64,000 nucleotides of DNA from Coriolopsis trogii (Eukaryota; Basidiomycota; Agaricomycetes; Polyporales; Polyporaceae), in assembly GCA_020543525.1 (NCBI GenBank), contig JAHYIO010000033.1:2933208-2997207 (forward strand), in the 5' to 3' direction. The notes beneath the pieces are model-generated. The model was not told the origin of the DNA, ran no database searches, and saw nothing but the letters and a program-made list of their open reading frames with translations. Shown here in pieces: positions 48,517 through 60,500 of this stretch (position 1 is its first letter; every line of letters starts with the position of its first letter). A program made the translations under genes and the position numbers.

Positions 48517-51442
48517 TCAGTCAAGCCGATTGTTCGCCAGGAAGTCCTTTGCCCTGTCGTCCAGTCCCTTCTGCACCTTCTGCGCTGTGATCGCGTGCTT
48601 CAGCGAGCGTCGCCAATGCGTGGCGGTGCGAAGCTGAAACGTCCCATTGCGGATGGCCTTGAGGTGGTTGACGAACCACGACTCGCAGTACGGCGTCCAA
48701 TAGCCGACATTGAGGCTACACTTGTCCCAAGTGTCGCACCTGGGCCACCATGACATGAGGTACACGTCGTTCACGTTTTGGCGTTGGTCTGCAGCACAAT
48801 ATTAGTCGATAATAATATATATGTGAGGGGAACTTACCGATAAACACGCGATAGACACCACAGATGACATCGAGCTCATCTGGGGAGAGCTCGTTATCGT
48901 AACTGTCATTACCTCGCGTCGGTCGGAAGGCTTTGCCATGCACCAGCACGTCGAGAGAGGGACCTTCAGCTGCGAGGTCGGCGAGGTTCCCCTGCGTGAG
49001 CTCCATAGCCAGGCGCCAGATGATACCTCCTCTTCGAATAGCAGCTCGCGCACGAGGACTGCTCAGGATGTCCCGCGCGCGAGTTTCGTACGCAGCGTAG
49101 TCGTACCTATTGAAGATGGTGTTGTGAGCGCGCCACCCGAGAACCGCTCGAATGGGAGGGGCCAGTGAAATGGGATCGCGCGGCGATGGGGTGTACAGCG
49201 TCTGGTGTGCGATGCCGTACTTGCTCACATATCGAGCGGCCTCCTGGCTTGTCTTGATGCTGTGTTGCCGGTAGAGCTGGAGGACGCTGGCAGGACTATA
49301 CAGCATTAGATCCCATAAGCTCGAGGACTTGTCGTCTTTGTACCGGACGCGGTACATGGGCAGACTGTTCAGCTCCATGACACGAACGGTCATTTTCGGA
49401 TGCTGGCGGTGAGGGAGCAGGAGGTACTCGGGATTGGCGGGCGCACAGTCCCAGAGGACTGGTGGCAGAGGGCTCTTCTCCAGGAGGGCATGGATGAAGG
49501 GACACAGGCACTGGACCTTCGACTCCTCGATCTTGAGGTCCTCGTCGAGATAGCCGAGTGTCTTGGCAAGCTGCTCGACGGGGTACTTCTTGACGGGTTG
49601 TGGTGGCGGTGGCTCGGACCAAATGAGACCAAAGCGTTGACGAAGGATGACATCAACGTGAGCCATGAAAGGAGCGTACTCGATGTCCTCGCGCTGGTAA
49701 TATGCCTCAAGGTCCGTGCGGAAGGATGCAGCAACGGGTGTCGGGGGCGCCTCGTTTGCCTGGCTGCTGCTGGGCCCGGCGACAGCGGGGTCGGCGGTAG
49801 GGTAGCCGTCTGCGTCCCAGTCGTCGGGGTCGTCGTCGTCGTCGCCGCCCTCCTCGCCTGGCGCAAGCTTGGCGCAGATGTCCCATTCGTCAGCGAAAGA
49901 GTCGTACCTCTTCTGCCGCTGACTATACATGCCCCACACGTCCTGGATAGCCTGGCGGCCGACTACCGACCGGTAGTCGAGTTCCCACCACTCTGGATTG
50001 GAGGTCATATCGATGTCGATATACTCCTTCCAGAGGTAGACTCTCGTGGGGCGAGTCGGCTGTTTGAACGTCTTGGCGATCTCCTCCCGCTTGAGACGGC
50101 GCGCGCGCGACTCCGGACTCTCGTTCTTTGCTGCTTGCGCGTTTTGCGCCGCGCGTCGAGCAAAGAACTCCAGATACGACTCGCCCTCCCGTTGCCCAGG
50201 TCCGTGAGGTTTTGTTACCCCCTCGGAGACAACTGGCTGGGCGGGAGGGGCTTGCTGGGCGGGAGGGGCTTGCTGGGCGGTTGGGGCTTGCTGGGCGGGA
50301 GGGGCTTGCTGGGCGGGAGGGGCTGGCTGGGCGGGAGGGGCTGGCTGGGCGGGAGGGGCTGGCTGGGCGGGAGGGGCTTGCTGGGCGGGAGGGGCTTGCT
50401 GGGCGGGAGGGGCTGGCTGGGCGGGAGGGGCTGGCTGGGCGGGAGGCCACCGGAAGAACATCTCCGCCCCAACCACACGTGCTTGGCCGTGGACGTACAC
50501 CACCCGCCCTTCTGCAACCGGAGGTATGTGGATGAAATGTTGCAGCGTGGGGGGGAAGTAGGGCTGGAGGAAAGGGAACTCGGCCAATACAGCCGAGATG
50601 GACTCCCTCGCTGGCCAAATGATGTACACCGGGAGGCCAGCGCGGATCATGCAGGGGACATGCTCCATCCACGGTGTGCGAGCTGGTCCAGCACCGGGAT
50701 ACACGTAGCATCCCACGCGCAAACCGGGCGACAAGTCGGGGATGCGGGAGTTGCGGAAGAGGTCGACCCAGGCCGCAGGGACGTTCGCGCGGAGCAGTGC
50801 GTGTACCCAGCGGGGAGGGTCCTGGTCTGAATTGTCGCTACACAGTGCTACGCCCATTGCGCAACGCGCGGCGAGGATCGCGCAGGCGTCCCGAGACTGG
50901 CTACATGCGGCTTGTGCTGCCTGCCGCGAGCGATGGATTTTCTTGTACCCCAACTCGTGCGGGAGGGGCCAGTGGGAGTCGAAAGGAATCTTGGCCTCGG
51001 GTTTACCGTGTGCCGCCGAGAAAAGAATCCCGCTGATGTGGGTGAGGGACCGCTCGAGGTCGCCCCATCGAGCCATGAGCTGGTCCGTGAGGCGAAACCC
51101 GCCTTCGACCTCGATGATCCTTATCTCCCGGATGTCCACGTTCAGCCGCGCGATGAACGTGCTCTCATTGTCGTACCGCTTGAGCATGTACGCGAGCTCG
51201 GGAGCCTTGTCGACCACCCAGAGCGCTTTGCGGAAGTCCCTCCCTTCGAGGCTCCGCTGGGGTTCCCCGATGGCGTACACGGGAGGGACTGACTCGGCAG
51301 CGGAGGGATTGATGACCGTGTACCATCTGTTATTGTATTCGAAGGCACGGCGGGGAGCGTTTGTACTAGTAGACAGAGAAGCTGGTCAGTTGGTATACAA
51401 TAGGCAAGAACTTCTAACATACCTGGCAGCGGGAGCACTCAT
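48517..51442 (-). CDS. 939-aa protein of unknown family, left gene of the divergent module
   Basis: Three exons (51442-51423, 51365-48838 and 48788-48517) join in phase to give exactly 939 aa. It starts MSAPAASTNAPRRAFEYNNR. The N-terminal region (to about residue 300) contains LWVVDKAPELAYMLKRYDNE, VGCYVYPGAGPARTPW and PVYIIWPARES. A Pro/Ala/Gln repeat follows, built from an 18-bp minisatellite. The C-terminal half has RRLKREEIAKTF, WKEYIDIDMTSNPEWWELDY, an Asp-rich block, QCLCPFIHALLEKSPLPP, and an end region VYLMSWWPRCDTWDK with LKAIRNGTFQLRTATHWRRS. There is no signal peptide, transmembrane helix or known catalytic motif. Intact splice sites and high CpG argue that it is live. I cannot assign a function. 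The shared promoter elements tie it to the SNF2 gene. Confidence 0.85.
50229..50450 (-). repeat. In-frame 18-bp minisatellite coding PPAQ(P/Q)A, about 12 copies
   Basis: Forward-strand units of CTGGGCGGGAGGGGCTKG repeat about twelve times without losing phase. They encode a Pro/Ala/Gln linker between the two halves of the 939-aa protein. Copies alternate between PA and QA variants. Copy number is expected to vary between strains. Confidence 0.9.
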
Positions 51443-51586: not shown

Positions 51587-52045
51587 GTCGAAGAGACGCG
51601 CGCAGTATAGCCGCACACGATCTCGAGGCCGGGAGGAGGGGAACCTTGGACTTGAGGAGTCGAAGAGACGCGCGCAGTATAGCCGCACACGATCTCGAGG
51701 CCGGGAGGAGGAGAACCTTGGACTTGAGGAGTCGAAGAGACGCGCGCAGTATAGCCGCACACGATCTCGAGGCCGGGAGGAGGGGAACCTTGGACTTGAG
51801 GAGTCGAAGAGACGTGCGCAGTATAGCCGCACACGATCTCGAGGCCGGGAACCTTGGGATTGAGACTTGAGGAGTCGAAGAGACGTGCGCAGTATAGCCG
51901 CACACGATCTCGAGGCCGGGAGGACGGGAACCTTGGGATTGGAGCTTGAGGTGTCGAGGAGACGTGCGCAGTATAGCCGCACACAATCTCGGGGTGGGTG
52001 GAGGGGTTGGGAGGAGACGTGTGCAGTATAGCCGCACACGGTCTC
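51587..52045 (-). repeat. Seven GGCTATACT hairpins, in a 72-bp tandem array, upstream of the 939-aa gene
   Basis: Copies spaced 72, 72, 72, 71, 79 and 55 bp each contain, read on the minus strand, GTGTGC-GGCTATACT-GCGCRC. The loop cores are at 51604-51612, 51676-51684, 51748-51756, 51820-51828, 51891-51899, 51970-51978 and 52025-52033. The arms pair over 7 bp with the nine loop bases invariant. All point the same way relative to the minus-strand gene that starts at 51442. The first copy is about 160 bp upstream of its ATG, so they may lie in the promoter or the 5' UTR. Confidence 0.85.
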
Positions 52046-52483
52046 GGGGCCGGGGATCGTCGATGGAGGGGCGCGAGAGGGGGAGAGGGTGGCGGATGGA
52101 CGGCGTGCGGGAAGCGCGAGTTATGCAGTGAGCGAGGTGGAAGGCGGGAGCACAGAGGAGGCCCTTGAGGGCATGTTGGACTTAGCGAAATCCCGCCTCT
52201 GTTTGGTCGTGTTGTCGTAGACGCCGGCGGGTGCGCTGGCAGAGATGATCTCCTGAGATTAGATTAGACTTCAGAAGAGATTATCGCTTCGCGAAGTCAA
52301 TGTGCCTGGAGATAAGATTGAATTATCAGATTGGCTACAAGGTTGGTTGTCCGAGAATCTCCGACTTGGCTTCTCGTGAGAATCCTAGCCACGTGATCAC
52401 CCTGGGACGTTTGCATGGGACCCACAAGTCTCGCTAGCAGTCTCATTGTCCTCTCTATCCGACTACTCTCTCCCATCACTCTG

Positions 52484-53890
52484 GTCGTGTGCGGCTATAC
52501 TGCGCACGACTGTTGGCGACAACCCTACGGCACTTTGGGCGACACTACTCTGCGTTTGTATGCGGCTATACTGCGTGCAAACGTGTCTAGGCGACACGAC
52601 CCTCTCTGCGTTTGTATGCGGCTATACTGCATGCGAACGTGTTCTAGGCGACGCGACTCCCCACTAGCTCGTGTGTGGCTATACTGCGCACGGCCGCCGA
52701 CGACTCTGCATACGGATGAACCCCCAGACAAGCCCTTCAATCACCTGGGACTCTTTCCTGGCTTGTGTGCGGCTATACTGCGCACGGCTATGGGAAAACT
52801 TTGCCCCGCGCGACCTCCGAACGACATGGCCCACCTCGGAAGACATGCCAATCGAGCGCAATATCCCTTGTCCTCGTATGTTCGCTTCCTAACCCACCTG
52901 ACACCTCTGCGGACTTGCTAACCCACCCGCACCTCGCATTCTTGCAGATCTCATGCGTCACTTAGACGCAACGACGCCCCACCTTCGTTCGGACAGTCCA
53001 TGCCGCTCGCCTCACCCAACAGTCTCTCCATCCGGGCTCCATCCTCATCTTCCTCCACATCCTCAGCCAACATCTCCTCTCTCCTTTGGCACGCTTCCCT
53101 GGCTCCTCTTCAAACCCAATCGACCGACGCCCCTCTCCTACTTGACGATCAGATGTCCTCCGCCTCGTCGTCATCTTCGTTCCTCGGCCGCCATCCTCCC
53201 GAGAACTGACTGGGCGCTGACGCTGCTCGTTTCAACATTTGGAGACCCTAGCGAACTTATCGGCAATCCAGCCTCGTGCTCAACGCACTTACAGTGCTTG
53301 GCACTCCAAGCCTCCACCGCAGTACTCGCATAAACTCTCTGGAGGACGCGTGAAGTTCTTCTGGCGGAATCGGGATCCTCTCGTCTGGTAAGTACGGGCA
53401 TTAATTGCATGACGCCATACTCATCGCACAGCGCGCGTAAGCAGGCCTCCTCGAGCCCCAACGCACGCACGCACATACGCGTACGTGGCGCGACGGCCCC
53501 GCATACCGCGCGCGCAGAGGCTTCCACGAGGCCCGCTCTCTGCACACCCGCGGGTCCTCCCAAATCCGGATTTTTGGGTCGGACGGAGTATCAAAGCCCC
53601 GCATGGTTAGGTGTGTATGTCGATCGATCGCGATCTCTCTTCCACTGGCTAATTACTCGGCAGCACGTTTTCGCGCACACTAAACAGTGATGGCAGTTGC
53701 TCGGACCCGACCCTCGCAACCCCATTTTTCGGGAGATATCTAAGACGCAGCCAAACCCCCAACCCCCCTCCCTCCTCCCGCCCGGTTTCTCTCCTGTCTG
53801 CGTGCTGTCTGTCTGTGGCTATACTACAGGCATACTTGCACCACCCGCGCTTCCCTCTGCGTGTCTTCTGTCTGCGGCTACACTGCAGGC
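52484..53890 (+). repeat. Seven GGCTATACT hairpins upstream of the SNF2 gene
   Basis: Loop cores GGCTATACT are at 52493-52501, 52564-52572, 52620-52628, 52677-52685, 52771-52779 and 53817-53825, and a variant GGCTACACT is at 53876-53884. All are on the plus strand, in the sense of the SNF2 gene that starts at 53948. Unlike the left array these are not a clean tandem repeat, because the sequence between them differs. Arm sequences differ between copies, yet 7-11 bp still pair when G.T is allowed: GTTTGTATGC/GCGTGCAAAC at 52564 and TCTGTCTGC/GCAGGCAGA at 53876. The last copy is 64 nt before the ATG. Confidence 0.85.
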
Positions 53891-53947
53891 AGATACACCG
53901 AGCCCTGTCTGAAATCCTCGCAATCTCTCGTCCACACCTCTGCCAAC

Positions 53948-56900
53948 ATGCCCACCGACAACCTTATGGTCTCGTTCCTCGAGCTTTCCCGCCTCGACAA
54001 GAAGCAATTTTCGGAGCCTGCGCCATGGTTCTGGCCCCAGTTCTGCGAGCGCAGCGGCCGGCAACGTCCACCATGGGTCCCTTCCGCGACACCCGAGTCA
54101 ACTGGTCTCAAACAGGATCAATTGAATGCTATCGTCGCCTTCGTCCACGCCTACCATGCCCGCGAAGACTATGCCGAATGTCTCAAGTACTCGAAGAAGC
54201 CCGACGCCAACGACAAGGATGGACGACAGGCCCTTGGGGCGTGGATCAACTCGTTTGCCAAGCGCATCCGTTGGAACCAGTTCTTCGACGAAACCATGGC
54301 TGAGTACGATCTCAACTCGTACTGCGTGGCAGCCGACGACGGCGAGAAGGTAAAACGTCGAGTCAAATTCCCCACAATGTTCGTTACCGCTGACACAATG
54401 ATTGCACAGTTTACTCCCATGGAGGAGAGCGGTGTTGCCAGTGCGAACAAGCAGCTCGTGATGAACCTCTTCGGCCAGGACGGCTTCCGACGCAACGGTA
54501 ACCTGCTGAAATCGGAAGTGCACAAGTTCGTTCAGAGCACGTGTGCCCTCATGTGGCGTCGTTGGCGAAGGTCCTACACTTATCGCCTCACCGCCTTGCA
54601 AAAGGCGGAGAAGGAAATGGAGAACGCTCGCTCGAAGGTCGAGGCCTCACCGAACGACCCTCCGGCTGCACGCCGGTATTTCGACAAGCTGGAGACGTAT
54701 TACCATCTACTGAAACCCTTCCGAGATGAGAAGCACAACGAGGATCGCGAGAGGGGGAAGCTCGAGCTCGAGTCTCTCCAGGCCATTGTCCGCGAAGGGG
54801 AGGACGCTCCGGTCAAAATCAGTAGGTTACCCTCTTCCGCAGGCAAGTAATCCACTAACACGACGAGCAGAGATTCCTCCCGCCTTGCGCAAGGCTCTCG
54901 CCCATCTCCCCACCCCCAAGGATGTCGACAGCGTCCTCCACGCCATCGCGGCTGCTATTCAGGCATTGGGGGACGATGTGGACGGAGAGATTCCCGTCCG
55001 CCACGCCGAGTTCGATATCAACCATTGGTCCGAGGGCGTTGAACACTATTGCAACACCACGCCGGAAGAACTCGACGCGTACTTGGGGATCACCGATGGC
55101 TACCTCGAGGGCTTCAACCAGACTGAGGACCCCGACGGTGCGACAGATCCTTGGACGAAGGAGGGTGAGAAAGTGCTGAAGTCTCCGTCGGCACTCCCCC
55201 TCCGCTTGCGTTGGCATCAGCTCATCGGGGTCCTGCACATCATGGACCGCATGTTCGAGGGGAAGCCCGTCCTCGTCATGGACAATGTCGGCGTCGGGAA
55301 GACCATCCAGGGCGTCGGGGTCATCACGCTCTATGCGTTCTTTCGCGCGTTCTTCGAGACTCGGGGCCATTTCCCTGGCAAGTTCTGTAGGTTGTTTGAT
55401 GCCCAGAGTGTGTTTTCGCTGTACTGACGTTCGTGTCGTTTCTCAGCGAAGAAACAGAACACTCCGGGCCTTGATGAAGATGGGAACCTGCCCAAACTAC
55501 CATTGATGATCATCTGCCCCCCCGGCTTGGTCGACCAGTGGATCACTGAGCTCCACCGCTTCCTCATCGCTCGTTCTTTCGGTATCCTGCCGTACGTGGG
55601 CGCGTGCACCATGGAAAACCGGAGCGCATTCTGGGTCAAGTGGTCTGAGCTCAATTGCAGCGCAGATCATTGTATTGTGGTTGCGAGCATGTCGGTGCGT
55701 ATCCACTGCTCTCGTTGGGTTCTTTGGCATATTCAATGATTTGGGATAGGCCGTCAAAGCCGATGCTACCGCCTGCCTCGTCAAGAACCCCCACAAGCTC
55801 GGCAGACCCTCCCGCGCACCCGGCGGGAACCAAACCCTCATTAACAAGACACTGTTTGCCGAGGGTCGCAAGTGGGGTGTGTGCATCATCGACGAGGTAC
55901 ACATGGCACGCAAGATTAATCAGCTTTACCTTGGTTGCTTGGAAATCCGCCATGCGAGCTTCATGACCATCGGTCTCACAGCGACGCCAGTGATGACAAC
56001 CCCGGAGGTAATGTTATATCTCCTGGACATGCGTAACGAGACCTGACAAGAGAATAGGACCTCTGCAACCTGGGTCTTCTTCTCGGCTTTGATTATTTCA
56101 CCGAGAATGCCGAACTTATGGATGGACATCGACGTGCCCTTGCACGCGGCATTCGCAACGACGGCAAGAATCGCAAGACCTTGGAAGAGACGGCTGAGAC
56201 AGCTAACGCGATCGTGCATGGCAAGGCTCCCGAAGAGATGGCGAGCGAGGCTCGCGACGCTGCTAGCGAATGGTTGGAGGACATACGGACGGGCTATCAG
56301 GGCGGCATCATCCGGCGCACCATCCACTCCCTCGACTGGCAACGCCGTCCCATCTCCGGCCTCGACGACTACCACGAGATCTTGCTGTTGCTCAAAATGA
56401 CGCCGCAGGAGCGGCTGTGCCAAGAGCTCCTCACAGAACGACTCGCCAGGGACTCCGGCATAATCCGCGGCAAGAAATTGGAGGTGAGTCTCGTCTAACG
56501 ATCTACGCAAGCTGTGTGCGCGCGGCTCGCAGCGTGCCTTCGAGATTGCTCACTTTATTGTATTTAGGCGTTTTATCTCGTCTTCCGGCAATCGATCTTG
56601 AACCCTGCTCTGAGCTACCTGCCTCAGTTCGCGTGGGACCCACGCACGGACGTGTATGCGAATCACGCCTCCACGAAACTGGACACCTTGCGCACCCTCC
56701 TTCAGCACCACCTAGCCACCCCTGGTGCACCTCCTCTGAAGGTAGCCGTGGTCGGTCCGGACAATCAGCTCATTCCTGACGAGCGGTATCTACCTGGGGG
56801 CGAATATCATATTGTTCAGAGCATTGCGCTCGGCCACGATCGCGTCGTCGTCTTTCTTCAGTTCCCGAAGAACAATTGGGTGGTCATTGCAGTATGTTAT

Positions 56901-58046
56901 TCAAATAGAAAGATCAGTTTGGTCGCACAACACTAACGAAGCTATCACAGTGCCTTGAAGCTCACGACATCGCGTACATTGAGATCAACGGGGAAATGTC
57001 GCCCACGGCACGGCACCGTGCCTTGAAAACCTTTAAGGAGTCCCCTGATATTCGCGTGCTTCTCCTCTCGGGTGTGGGAGGCGTGGGCCTCAACATGGCC
57101 TTCGCGAATATCCTCATAATCGTTGTATGTGTAGCAGTTATCATCGGGAATTCGTATGCTGATATTGCTCTAGGATCCGGTGTGGTCGGCACAGGACGAC
57201 GCGCAGATCAAAGGACGGGTCCACCGCCATCTGCAGAAGAAGCGGATCATCGTCTACAAGCTCCTCATGAGAGGGACGTCCGATGTTTTCATGGACACGA
57301 TAAGCAACGGGAAGGCTATGATGCATCAAGCATTCATTGGAGATGACAGCCCCCTTGGTTAGTCCACCAAAAACACCACACCGTAGTATTCTAATTGTCA
57401 TACAGAGCGTATCATCAACGAGGACGACGAGGACGACGATGATGACGATGATGATTCAAGCGAAGCTTCCGGGGGAGAGGACAAACAATCGGCCGAAGAC
57501 AAGAAGGGCAAGCGCAAGGCAAAGGCTACGGAGACTAAGCCGCGGGAGCCCAAGAAGCCCAGGACCGTCAAGGCCAAGGAGTCCAACAAGGAGAAGCCGA
57601 AGCCCAAAGCGGCCGGAAAGGGTGGAGGCAAACGGGGAGGCAAAGCCGCAAACTCGAAGCCTGATCGAACCAACGATACGTCGTTGACCGCGAGTCCAAA
57701 GGCGGCTTCCTCGAGGCCCGAGGACGCGCTTGTCCCTCCGAGCGCCTCGACTTCCGCCAACCCCAGCGGCGAGCCCACATCGACGGCCGTATCGACAACT
57801 CGCAATGCAGAGGGGGCTTCCTCGAGGCCCGAGGACGCGCTTGTCCCTCCGAGCGCCTCGACTTCCGCGCACGCCAACGGCGAGCCCACCGCGACCCCCG
57901 GTTCCACAAGCCCGACTGCAGAGGGGGCTTCCTCGAGGCCCGAGGACGTGCCTGTCCCTCCGACCGCGGCGACTTCCGCGCACGCCAACGGCGAGCCCAC
58001 CGCGACGCCCGGATCGACAACCCCCAGTGCAGAGGGGGCTTCCTAG
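53948..58046 (+). CDS. SNF2-type helicase/ATPase, right gene of the divergent module (about 1,190 aa)
   Basis: Ten exons join in phase. The N-terminal third (MPTDNLMVSFLEL, AIVAFVHAYHAREDY, MWRRWRRSYTYRL) is unrecognised. The helicase core begins LRWHQLIGVLHIMDRM and has all SF2/SNF2 motifs: Walker A DNVGVGKT, LMIICPPGLVDQW, WGVCIIDEVH (motif II), TIGLTATPV (motif III), LLLSGVGGVGLNM (motif V) and DPVWSAQDDAQIKGRVHR (motif VI). An Asp/Lys-rich tail with basic patches follows and probably directs nuclear entry and DNA contact. The tail ends in three 37-residue repeats. SNF2 enzymes translocate on DNA and remodel chromatin or recombination intermediates. The DNVGVGKT loop departs from the usual DEMGLGKT, but the Lys/Thr needed for ATP is kept. 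Confidence 0.9.
57705..58046 (+). repeat. 111-bp in-frame repeat at the C-terminus, cut by a stop in the fourth copy
   Basis: GCTTCCTCGAGGCCCGAGG starts at 57705, 57816 and 57927, exactly 111 bp apart, each unit coding 37 aa that begin ASSRPEDA/V. A fourth start at 58038 reads GCTTCCTAG, so the TCG codon has become TAG and ends the protein. Sequence after it is no longer the repeat. Confidence 0.85.
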
Positions 58047-58069: not shown

Positions 58070-58700
58070 CCAAGCTCCATGGAGCCGGATGGAGCCGGGC
58101 TAAAGTAACTTGAATAACTCTTGAAGGAATGAGCCTAGCCTGGAGCCGGAGGGGACAATCTGATAGCTCTGCCTTTCCTCTATCCAGTGATACCACTGGT
58201 ATGTGCATTGGTTGCCATTTGACCTTGCTACAGAGCTTGCAATGTCCGGCTCCACTGTTTGGGGGTAGAGCCGGGCCAAAGTAACTTGCATAACTCTTGA
58301 AGGAATGAGCCTAGCCTGGAGCCGGAGGGGACAATCTGATAGCTCTGCCTTTCCTCTATCCAGTGATACCACTGGTATGTGCATTGGTTGCCATTTGACC
58401 TTGCTACAGAGCTTGCAATGTCCGGCTCCACTGTTTGGGGGTAGAGCCGGGCCAAAGTAACTTGCATAACTCTTGAAGGAATGAGCCTAGCCTGGAGCCG
58501 GAGGGGACAATCTGATAGCTCTGCCTTTCCTCTATCCAGTGATACCACTGGTATGTGCATTGGTTGCCATTTGACCTTGCTACAGAGCTTGCAATGTCCG
58601 GCTCCACTGTTTGGGGGTAGAGCCGGGCCAAATTAACTTGAATAACTTTTGAAGGAATGAACCTGGCTTGGAGCCAGAGGGGACAATCTGATAGCCCTTG
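58070..58700. repeat. 176-bp satellite, about 3.5 copies
   Basis: The word AAAGTAACTTG (AAATTAACTTG in the last copy) occurs at 58102, 58278, 58454 and 58630, exactly 176 bp apart. The inner copies are nearly identical and the last decays after about 58700. It begins within about 30 bp of the SNF2 stop codon and marks the right edge of the CpG-rich module. The open frames read through it on the minus strand are repeats of one another and not genes. Confidence 0.9.
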
Positions 58701-60337: not shown

Positions 60338-60500
60338 GGAAGTTTGGTCATGTGACTCAACTTGCCAGCTGTGGGGAAGTTTGGTCATGTGACTCAACTT
60401 GCCAGCTGTGGGGAAGTTTGGTCATGTGACTCAACTTGCCAGCTGTGGGGAAGTTTGGTCATGTGACTCAACTTGCCAGCTGTGGGGAAGTTTGATCATG
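60338..60500. repeat. 37-bp tandem repeat, about 4.3 copies
   Basis: AGTTTGGTCATGTGACTCAA occurs at 60341, 60378, 60415 and 60452, exactly 37 bp apart, with a degraded start at 60489. Copies are nearly identical. Each has the palindrome-like GTCATGTGAC. The same unit is found once, diverged, at 45.84 kb. Confidence 0.9.

Follow-up and report, generated by a model that had tools for sequence, protein, structure and literature searches.

Arrays of short covarying hairpins upstream of divergent subtelomeric gene pairs in Coriolopsis trogii

The operator hairpins of phage coat proteins, such as that of MS2, are leader elements of translational control in which the loop is read by the protein and most stem positions need only to pair. 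The hairpins described here are likewise short stem-loops, with a loop that would be read and a stem in which pairing appears to suffice, and differ in being multi-copy, in lying in a fungal subtelomere and in having a reader that is, at this stage, proposed. In fungi, autoregulatory mRNA structures have been described for RPL12, RPS13 and lysyl-tRNA synthetase and, in the account given of these elements, were proposed to bind the encoded protein (PMC8216456). As presented there, they resemble the present ones in being structured 5' UTR elements supported by covariation (theirs are also found in introns), and they belong to conserved Ascomycota genes, the genomes screened being all of Ascomycota; in contrast, the present hairpins are short, stand in arrays of up to 8 in the leaders of two divergent genes from different families, and bear a signature that differs from one paralogous pair to another. 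The genes themselves recall the fungal subtelomeric helicase families described as RecQ-type and present in several copies beside telomeres (PMC7473861, PMC10817607), with which they share the multi-copy occurrence of a helicase gene next to telomeres; unlike these, our gene is of the SNF2 type, stands head-to-head with a gene for an unknown protein and carries leader hairpins, and the term 'SNF2' does not occur in the main text of either article. Rfam 15 returned no match at the gathering threshold for six loci (19,971 bases), and we found no description of the hairpins in the open-access literature searched, from which most subscription journals are absent. Structured leader elements are a known kind, and, as far as could be found, a pair-wide signature that differs between families is new.

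The gene pair and its fourteen hairpins

The window, i.e., the whole stretch of 64,000 nucleotides analysed, is the right end of contig C30 and terminates in TTAGGG repeats. It belongs to a genome of 38.8 Mb in 39 contigs, and the hairpin comparisons below are among paralogs of this single genome. The original prediction placed fourteen hairpins between two divergent genes, seven in the sense of each, and this is what we find:

48716-51442, minus strand: left gene, predicted 889 aa, one predicted 5' intron (51366-51422)
51597-51619, minus strand: hairpin L1, loop 51604-51612, 7 bp, in a 72-bp repeat unit
51669-51691, minus strand: hairpin L2
51741-51763, minus strand: hairpin L3
51813-51835, minus strand: hairpin L4
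51884-51906, minus strand: hairpin L5
51963-51985, minus strand: hairpin L6
52018-52040, minus strand: hairpin L7, seven pairs, all Watson-Crick
52482-52512, plus strand: hairpin R1, SNF2-side distal, 11 bp
52551-52585, plus strand: hairpin R2, SNF2-side distal, 13 bp, pair 4 A-U
52607-52641, plus strand: hairpin R3, SNF2-side distal, 13 bp
52669-52693, plus strand: hairpin R4, SNF2-side distal, 8 bp
52763-52787, plus strand: hairpin R5, SNF2-side distal, 8 bp
53810-53832, plus strand: hairpin R6, SNF2-proximal, 7 bp, pair 4 C-G, closing pair U-A
53867-53893, plus strand: hairpin R7, SNF2-proximal, 9 bp, loop GGCTACACT
53948-58046, plus strand: SNF2-type helicase gene, 10 predicted exons, PF00176 and PF00271

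The left protein, at first taken to have 939 aa, shortens to 889 aa once its predicted intron is removed. The SNF2 gene passes the Pfam cut-offs with 50.8 bits for PF00176 (cut-off 24.9) and 50.6 bits for PF00271 (cut-off 23.5); among the four Pfam families listed for it the RecQ-specific one is absent, and SNF2-related and helicase C-terminal domains are found instead. A 176-bp tandem repeat (3.4 copies, 58092-58695) lies immediately downstream of this gene, and a repeat of about 37 bp, whose unit starts GGGGAAGTTTGGTCATGTGACTC, was seen by eye at 60340-60500, upstream of a telomere-proximal reading frame.

The hairpin loops span 51604 to 53884 and read GGCTATACT in 13 cases and GGCTACACT in one (53876); with up to one mismatch, this loop matches the whole window 20 times, compared to 7.06 ± 2.68 times in 100 shuffles (largest 16). 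The stems measure 7 to 13 bp when G.T is allowed, and stems of at least 7 bp around any 9-nt loop are found at 0.13% of the plus-strand positions of the window, the array hairpins counted in. The supposed 9-nt loop held up in its near-invariance and failed in its extent, as in both RNAalifold and single folds it closes further by a G.U and a G-C pair, leaving a CUAUA pentaloop. The hairpins at 52564 and 52620 do, as had been noted, share an identical left arm and both pair with right arms that differ at two positions. TRF resolves the left array into 5.8 copies of a 72-bp tandem unit; its seven hairpins are therefore far from independent, and most of the independent information sits in the SNF2-side copies.

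Further copies of the 2.4-kb hairpin region, 94-100% identical, are found at the left end of C30, on the 22-kb contig C31 and where contigs C36 and C6 start; a fragment in the same identity class lies at the C4 start. The left array has 7 hairpins in the window, 7 at the other end of C30, 7 on C31, 4 on C36, 4 on C6 and 2 on C4, where it is cut by the contig start. The copy on C6 carries an additional SNF2-side hairpin, in which the arms have changed and the pairing is kept. Within the SNF2-side leader of the window, about 380 bp (52865-53248) are 84% identical to a stretch in the interior of C28 (L015, C28:2200967-2201355); as this counterpart resembles, by eye, the 5' part of an unrelated gene, the stretch is possibly a captured gene fragment.

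Paralogous pairs and the distribution of their hairpins

A genome search with both proteins, in which 47 of the 60 initial candidates for one and 51 of the 55 for the other were scored, uncovered diverged head-to-head pairs near other contig ends. Besides the copies described above, hereafter family A, they form family B (C34, C28, C35, C5 and C27, with the left gene only in C2, C32 and C33) and family C (C4, C39 and C27), whose left proteins are 39% and 37% identical to that of family A, respectively. Both leaders of these pairs carry repeated hairpins in the sense of their gene, of a type unlike that of family A. The main form is GCAG-CCT-CGTGAGG(A/G)-TNGT-(T/C)CTTCACG-TTC-CTGC on the SNF2 side and CGGG-TTC-TGTGAGG(A/G)-TNGT-(T/C)CTTCACA-CCT-CCCG on the left-gene side, with variation in single copies. 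The pair that closes the loop is A-T in 55 family-B matches and G-C in 18 family-C matches, i.e., in 73 of 73, with a search pattern that left both closing bases free to vary. Three outer stems occur, GCAG/CUGC, CGGG/CCCG and UAGG/CCUA, the last in two hairpin copies that precede a third gene about 4 kb beyond SNF2 in family B:

C34:2375969-2377200, C28:21120-22351, C35:29615-30846, C4:2516723-2517950: the unit's third gene, encoding an unknown protein

The third gene of family C is 69-75% identical, and, contrary to our own expectation, the 293 nt upstream of the one copy read contain no hairpin; none was seen by eye upstream of a distant third-gene relative (C28:4-583) either. In the family B and C leaders read, no exact GGCTATACT-type hairpin is present; in paralogous pairs the position of the hairpins is kept and their sequence is different. 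Three weak GGCTATACT-like matches in these leaders (L044, L068 and L069), with 2-3 loop mismatches, look like chance and were set aside.

The 9-mer GGCTATACT taken alone means little, as it has 206 sites in the genome and 176 in the reversed control, and hairpins were therefore counted together with flanking stem bases. The resulting family-A pattern (the loop with the three adjoining bases of either arm, which misses the additional hairpin of C6) has 66 matches in the 38.8 Mb and the B/C pattern 73, with none for either reversed control. In this genome, where the check proposed with the original prediction was made, all 66 family-A matches lie upstream of the paired genes, and together with 71 of the 73 B/C matches they are in the sense of the left, SNF2 or third gene that follows; the remaining two (C32:1384 and C33:1382) lie on the SNF2 side of truncated copies, where the SNF2 gene was not found. 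At eight further GGCTATACT sites (L001-L008), each of them on contig C1, the flanking bases form a stem of 0-1 bp. No hairpin was found in the upstream sequence read for two related genes, the family-D left gene on C24, which is the copy of that family that was read, and a solo SNF2 gene (C28:5504-8552), and neither pattern matches near them, nor near the family-D copies on C7, C10, C22 and C23. The left-gene relative on C24 adjoins what by eye is an apparent protein-kinase gene.

When family B is compared with family C, identity is 85-94% over six matched hairpins and 57-66% in six spacer or flank comparisons, where a shuffled-spacer control, run on one spacer, gave a mean of 54% and a maximum of 64%. 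Within a pair, the leader of the left gene and that of SNF2 have little in common beyond the hairpins, and the three leaders of family B (left, SNF2 and third gene) share the hairpin and its closest flanks and little else, one match continuing, less well conserved, for about 20 nt of spacer. These comparisons bear on the possibility that the hairpins are neutral repeats, spread by tandem duplication and subtelomeric recombination, in which template-switch correction rather than selection keeps the palindromes intact. The tandem structure and changing copy number of the left array and the close likeness of the chromosome-end copies would fit such an origin, yet hairpins that are conserved between spacers near shuffle level, and that recur with little else in three leaders of one unit, would not; nor would the sense orientation in seven of seven distinct leaders (left and SNF2 in A, B and C, and the third gene in B) or the T.G pairs kept in the stems, whereas template switching would yield perfect ones. 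We consider a neutral origin highly improbable.

Leaders of family A give no BLAST alignment with those of B and C at 1e-3, and at an E-value of 0.5 only a promoter block and purine-rich pieces align. Two features of the window are nonetheless shared by all three families:

52173-52213, strand unassigned: promoter-core block common to families A, B and C (ATGTTGGACTTAGCGA ... TGTTTGGTCGTGTT), E-value 0.007 against B and 0.001 against C
52515-52652, plus strand: four GGCGAC spacer motifs (52515, 52538, 52590 and 52647) between the distal hairpins

GGCGAC, a motif chosen after the sequences had been read, has four copies in every family's distal segment on the SNF2 side, compared to 0.17-0.25 expected. 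Together with the position of the arrays and the promoter block, this suggests that the arrays of A and of B/C have a common origin, and that the hairpin would have been replaced while the GGCGAC spacer motif was not. A second palindrome, GGCGTC-N3-GACGCC, lies between the distal and proximal hairpins of families B (C34:2367411-2367790; four copies, one as GCCGTC...GACGGC) and C (C4:2508709-2509105; three copies and an imperfect one); its arms are mostly constant and its spacer varies, which is more like a DNA operator. The SNF2 leader of family B on C34 further contains an inverted repeat with arms of about 50 bp around a short insert (L078:110-440), MITE-like by eye.

Pairing, strand preference and position of the hairpins

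For family A, we aligned 12 distinct hairpins, namely 11 of the window's 14 and the additional one of C6, the other three being left-array copies that are identical over the aligned 29 nt. Under a 10-bp model, 90.0% of the 120 cells pair, and the inner seven pairs do so in 84 of 84 cells, with pair 4 realised as G-C, A-U, C-G or G-U and pair 7 as C-G, U-A or U-G. When arms are exchanged between hairpins, full inner pairing is retained in 65 of 132 combinations, and in 17 of 82 if the two arms come from different arm classes. Covariation scores 0.473, compared to 0.301 ± 0.034 in 500 shuffles, none of which reaches it, and no slid control exceeds 0.231; in 14 distinct B/C hairpins, where 98.2% of 168 cells pair, the score is 0.464 versus 0.184 (0 of 500), and two of five summary measures, double-change pairs (309/500) and further pair types (467/500), are not above the shuffles; as the hairpin copies are related by duplication, such shuffles overstate significance. 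Structure with compensatory changes, as is expected of a cis-regulatory structured RNA, is present here among the paralogs of one genome.

So is a preference for the sense strand. As RNA, this strand is the more stable in every one of 26 distinct hairpins from the three families, by 6.1 kcal/mol on average against a background of -0.2 ± 3.0 kcal/mol in 2000 random pieces of the window, and in all seven hairpins tested as single-stranded DNA the antisense fold is the weaker one. The advantage of the gene-sense strand arises because T.G turns into A.C on the opposite strand: the non-Watson-Crick pairs among the inner 84 cells are 17 T.G and 1 G.T, with no A.C or C.A. This composition speaks against an earlier caution that the T.G pairs might be left by C-to-T decay of a perfect inverted repeat, since strand-symmetric decay would produce about half A.C. 

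Position relative to predicted transcripts differs between proximal and distal hairpins. In all six family B and C loci scanned, several of them near-identical copies, the first proximal hairpin follows a TATA box by 66-73 nt, the distance at the third gene of family B being 72 nt. On the SNF2 side no more than about 60 nt separate the last proximal hairpin from the start codon, and from their placement the proximal hairpins would be expected within the 5' UTR. The SNF2-side distal arrays, more than 1 kb upstream of the ATG and in B and C also upstream of the TATA box, could be part of a different transcript or of the promoter. Splice-like motifs that might delimit a leader intron lie between the two sets of hairpins in each of the three families, the TATA box of B and C lying there as well, and on the plus strand of family A there is no TATAA or TATAT between 52000 and 54000:

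53388-53663, plus strand: possible intron in the SNF2 leader, with the distal hairpins before it and the proximal ones after it (GTAAGT ... CTAAT..CAG; splice-like motifs only)

Together, these data allow a judgement on a protein-bound cruciform or operator, which the original prediction had offered beside a structured RNA. On this account the inverted repeats would be sites for a dimeric transcription factor, or extruded cruciforms, in a shared bidirectional promoter; they do flank the conserved promoter core, the B/C hairpin core is near the palindrome CGTGAGGA-N4-TCTTCACG, whose half-sites could take a dimer, and the distal SNF2-side array is far from the ATG and, in B and C, upstream of a TATA box. 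A dimeric operator would have constant half-sites, a tolerant spacer and strand symmetry, none of which is seen in family A, where the apex is constant and the arms co-vary within single sites (the B/C core is less clear in this respect). A cruciform requires both strands, yet the antisense strand consistently folds worse, and the proximal hairpins of B and C lie 3' of their TATA boxes. We therefore disfavour an operator or cruciform and hold it to be unlikely.

An RNA structure, in turn, might act without any trans factor, either by lowering translation through cap-proximal structure or as a short-hairpin precursor of small RNAs that silence the family. The stems are stable as RNA (-11 to -19 kcal/mol) and two copies stand just 5' of the SNF2 ATG, but an element that blocked by structure alone would have no need of a nearly constant apex, and stems of 7-13 bp seem short for Dicer. 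Like a neutral origin, such action appears very doubtful to us. Kissing loops were also considered and dropped, as by eye UAUA is self-complementary in family A but neither R7 (UACA) nor the B/C apex is.

A candidate reader of the hairpins

Covariation and the folding advantage of the sense strand support, short of proof, the prediction of a structured RNA in the 5' leaders. A constant apex on drifting, co-varying stems is, by analogy, the pattern of RNA hairpins that are read by a protein, and we consider it probable, if far from assured, that the hairpins are leader RNA elements on the sense strand, read by a family-specific trans factor that co-regulates the pair. Transcription of the hairpins, their reading by a protein and a regulatory effect of that reading are inferred steps of this model. 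Each leader would bear an array of short stem-loops on the sense strand of its own gene, with the apex (in family A, CUAUA closed by G-C and G.U) as the recognition signature and a stem that can drift in sequence because it is held by base pairing. As the signature is common to both genes of a divergent pair, and in family B to the third gene, and different between pair families, a family-specific RNA-binding factor would most likely bind both leaders, co-regulating the transcripts post-transcriptionally at the level of translation, stability or localisation.

The likeliest candidates for this factor would be the pair's own products, which would imply autoregulation, and above all the left-gene protein, the obvious choice because it is bound to the pair and diverges with the hairpin. 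A tentative extension, possible rather than probable, is that each unit is self-addressed, its own product reading the family-specific hairpin tag on the transcripts of that unit and not on those of sister units; tag and reader would then co-evolve, as in plasmid incompatibility groups, and several unit families could coexist in one genome without cross-talk. It is as if each pair had its own RNA identity tag, with paired genes carrying one signature and sister pairs another. Arrayed, covariation-supported hairpins that are common to divergent genes and different between families would amount to a natural experiment in the divergence of RNA-protein specificity, directly testable with three related units, three hairpin types and one predicted reader class in one genome, and would open a first way into the function of a subtelomeric family of SNF2-type genes.

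Searches for relatives, in each of which about 8000 candidates were scored, yielded seven for the left protein, two of them with an organism name (Ganoderma sinense and Obba rivulosa), and one close relative for the SNF2 protein, from Rhodofomes roseus (29% identity). Along with the spliced genes, these relatives indicate a basidiomycete, probably of the Polyporales. In the copy of Pfam used, neither the 889-aa left protein, nor its family-B paralog, nor the seven related proteins have a match above cut-off, so that a recognised RNA-binding domain is absent from the left protein by this measure, and its predicted fold is poor (mean pLDDT 52.9). Two of the relatives (P0002 and P0004) carry a precomputed assignment to PF28437.1, a family absent from the results of that Pfam copy. 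Among its copies, the left gene has open frames of 889, 865, 853 and 847 aa, and in the window it contains an 18-bp tandem repeat (11.7 copies, 50236-50446) that encodes a Pro/Ala/Gln-rich repeat.
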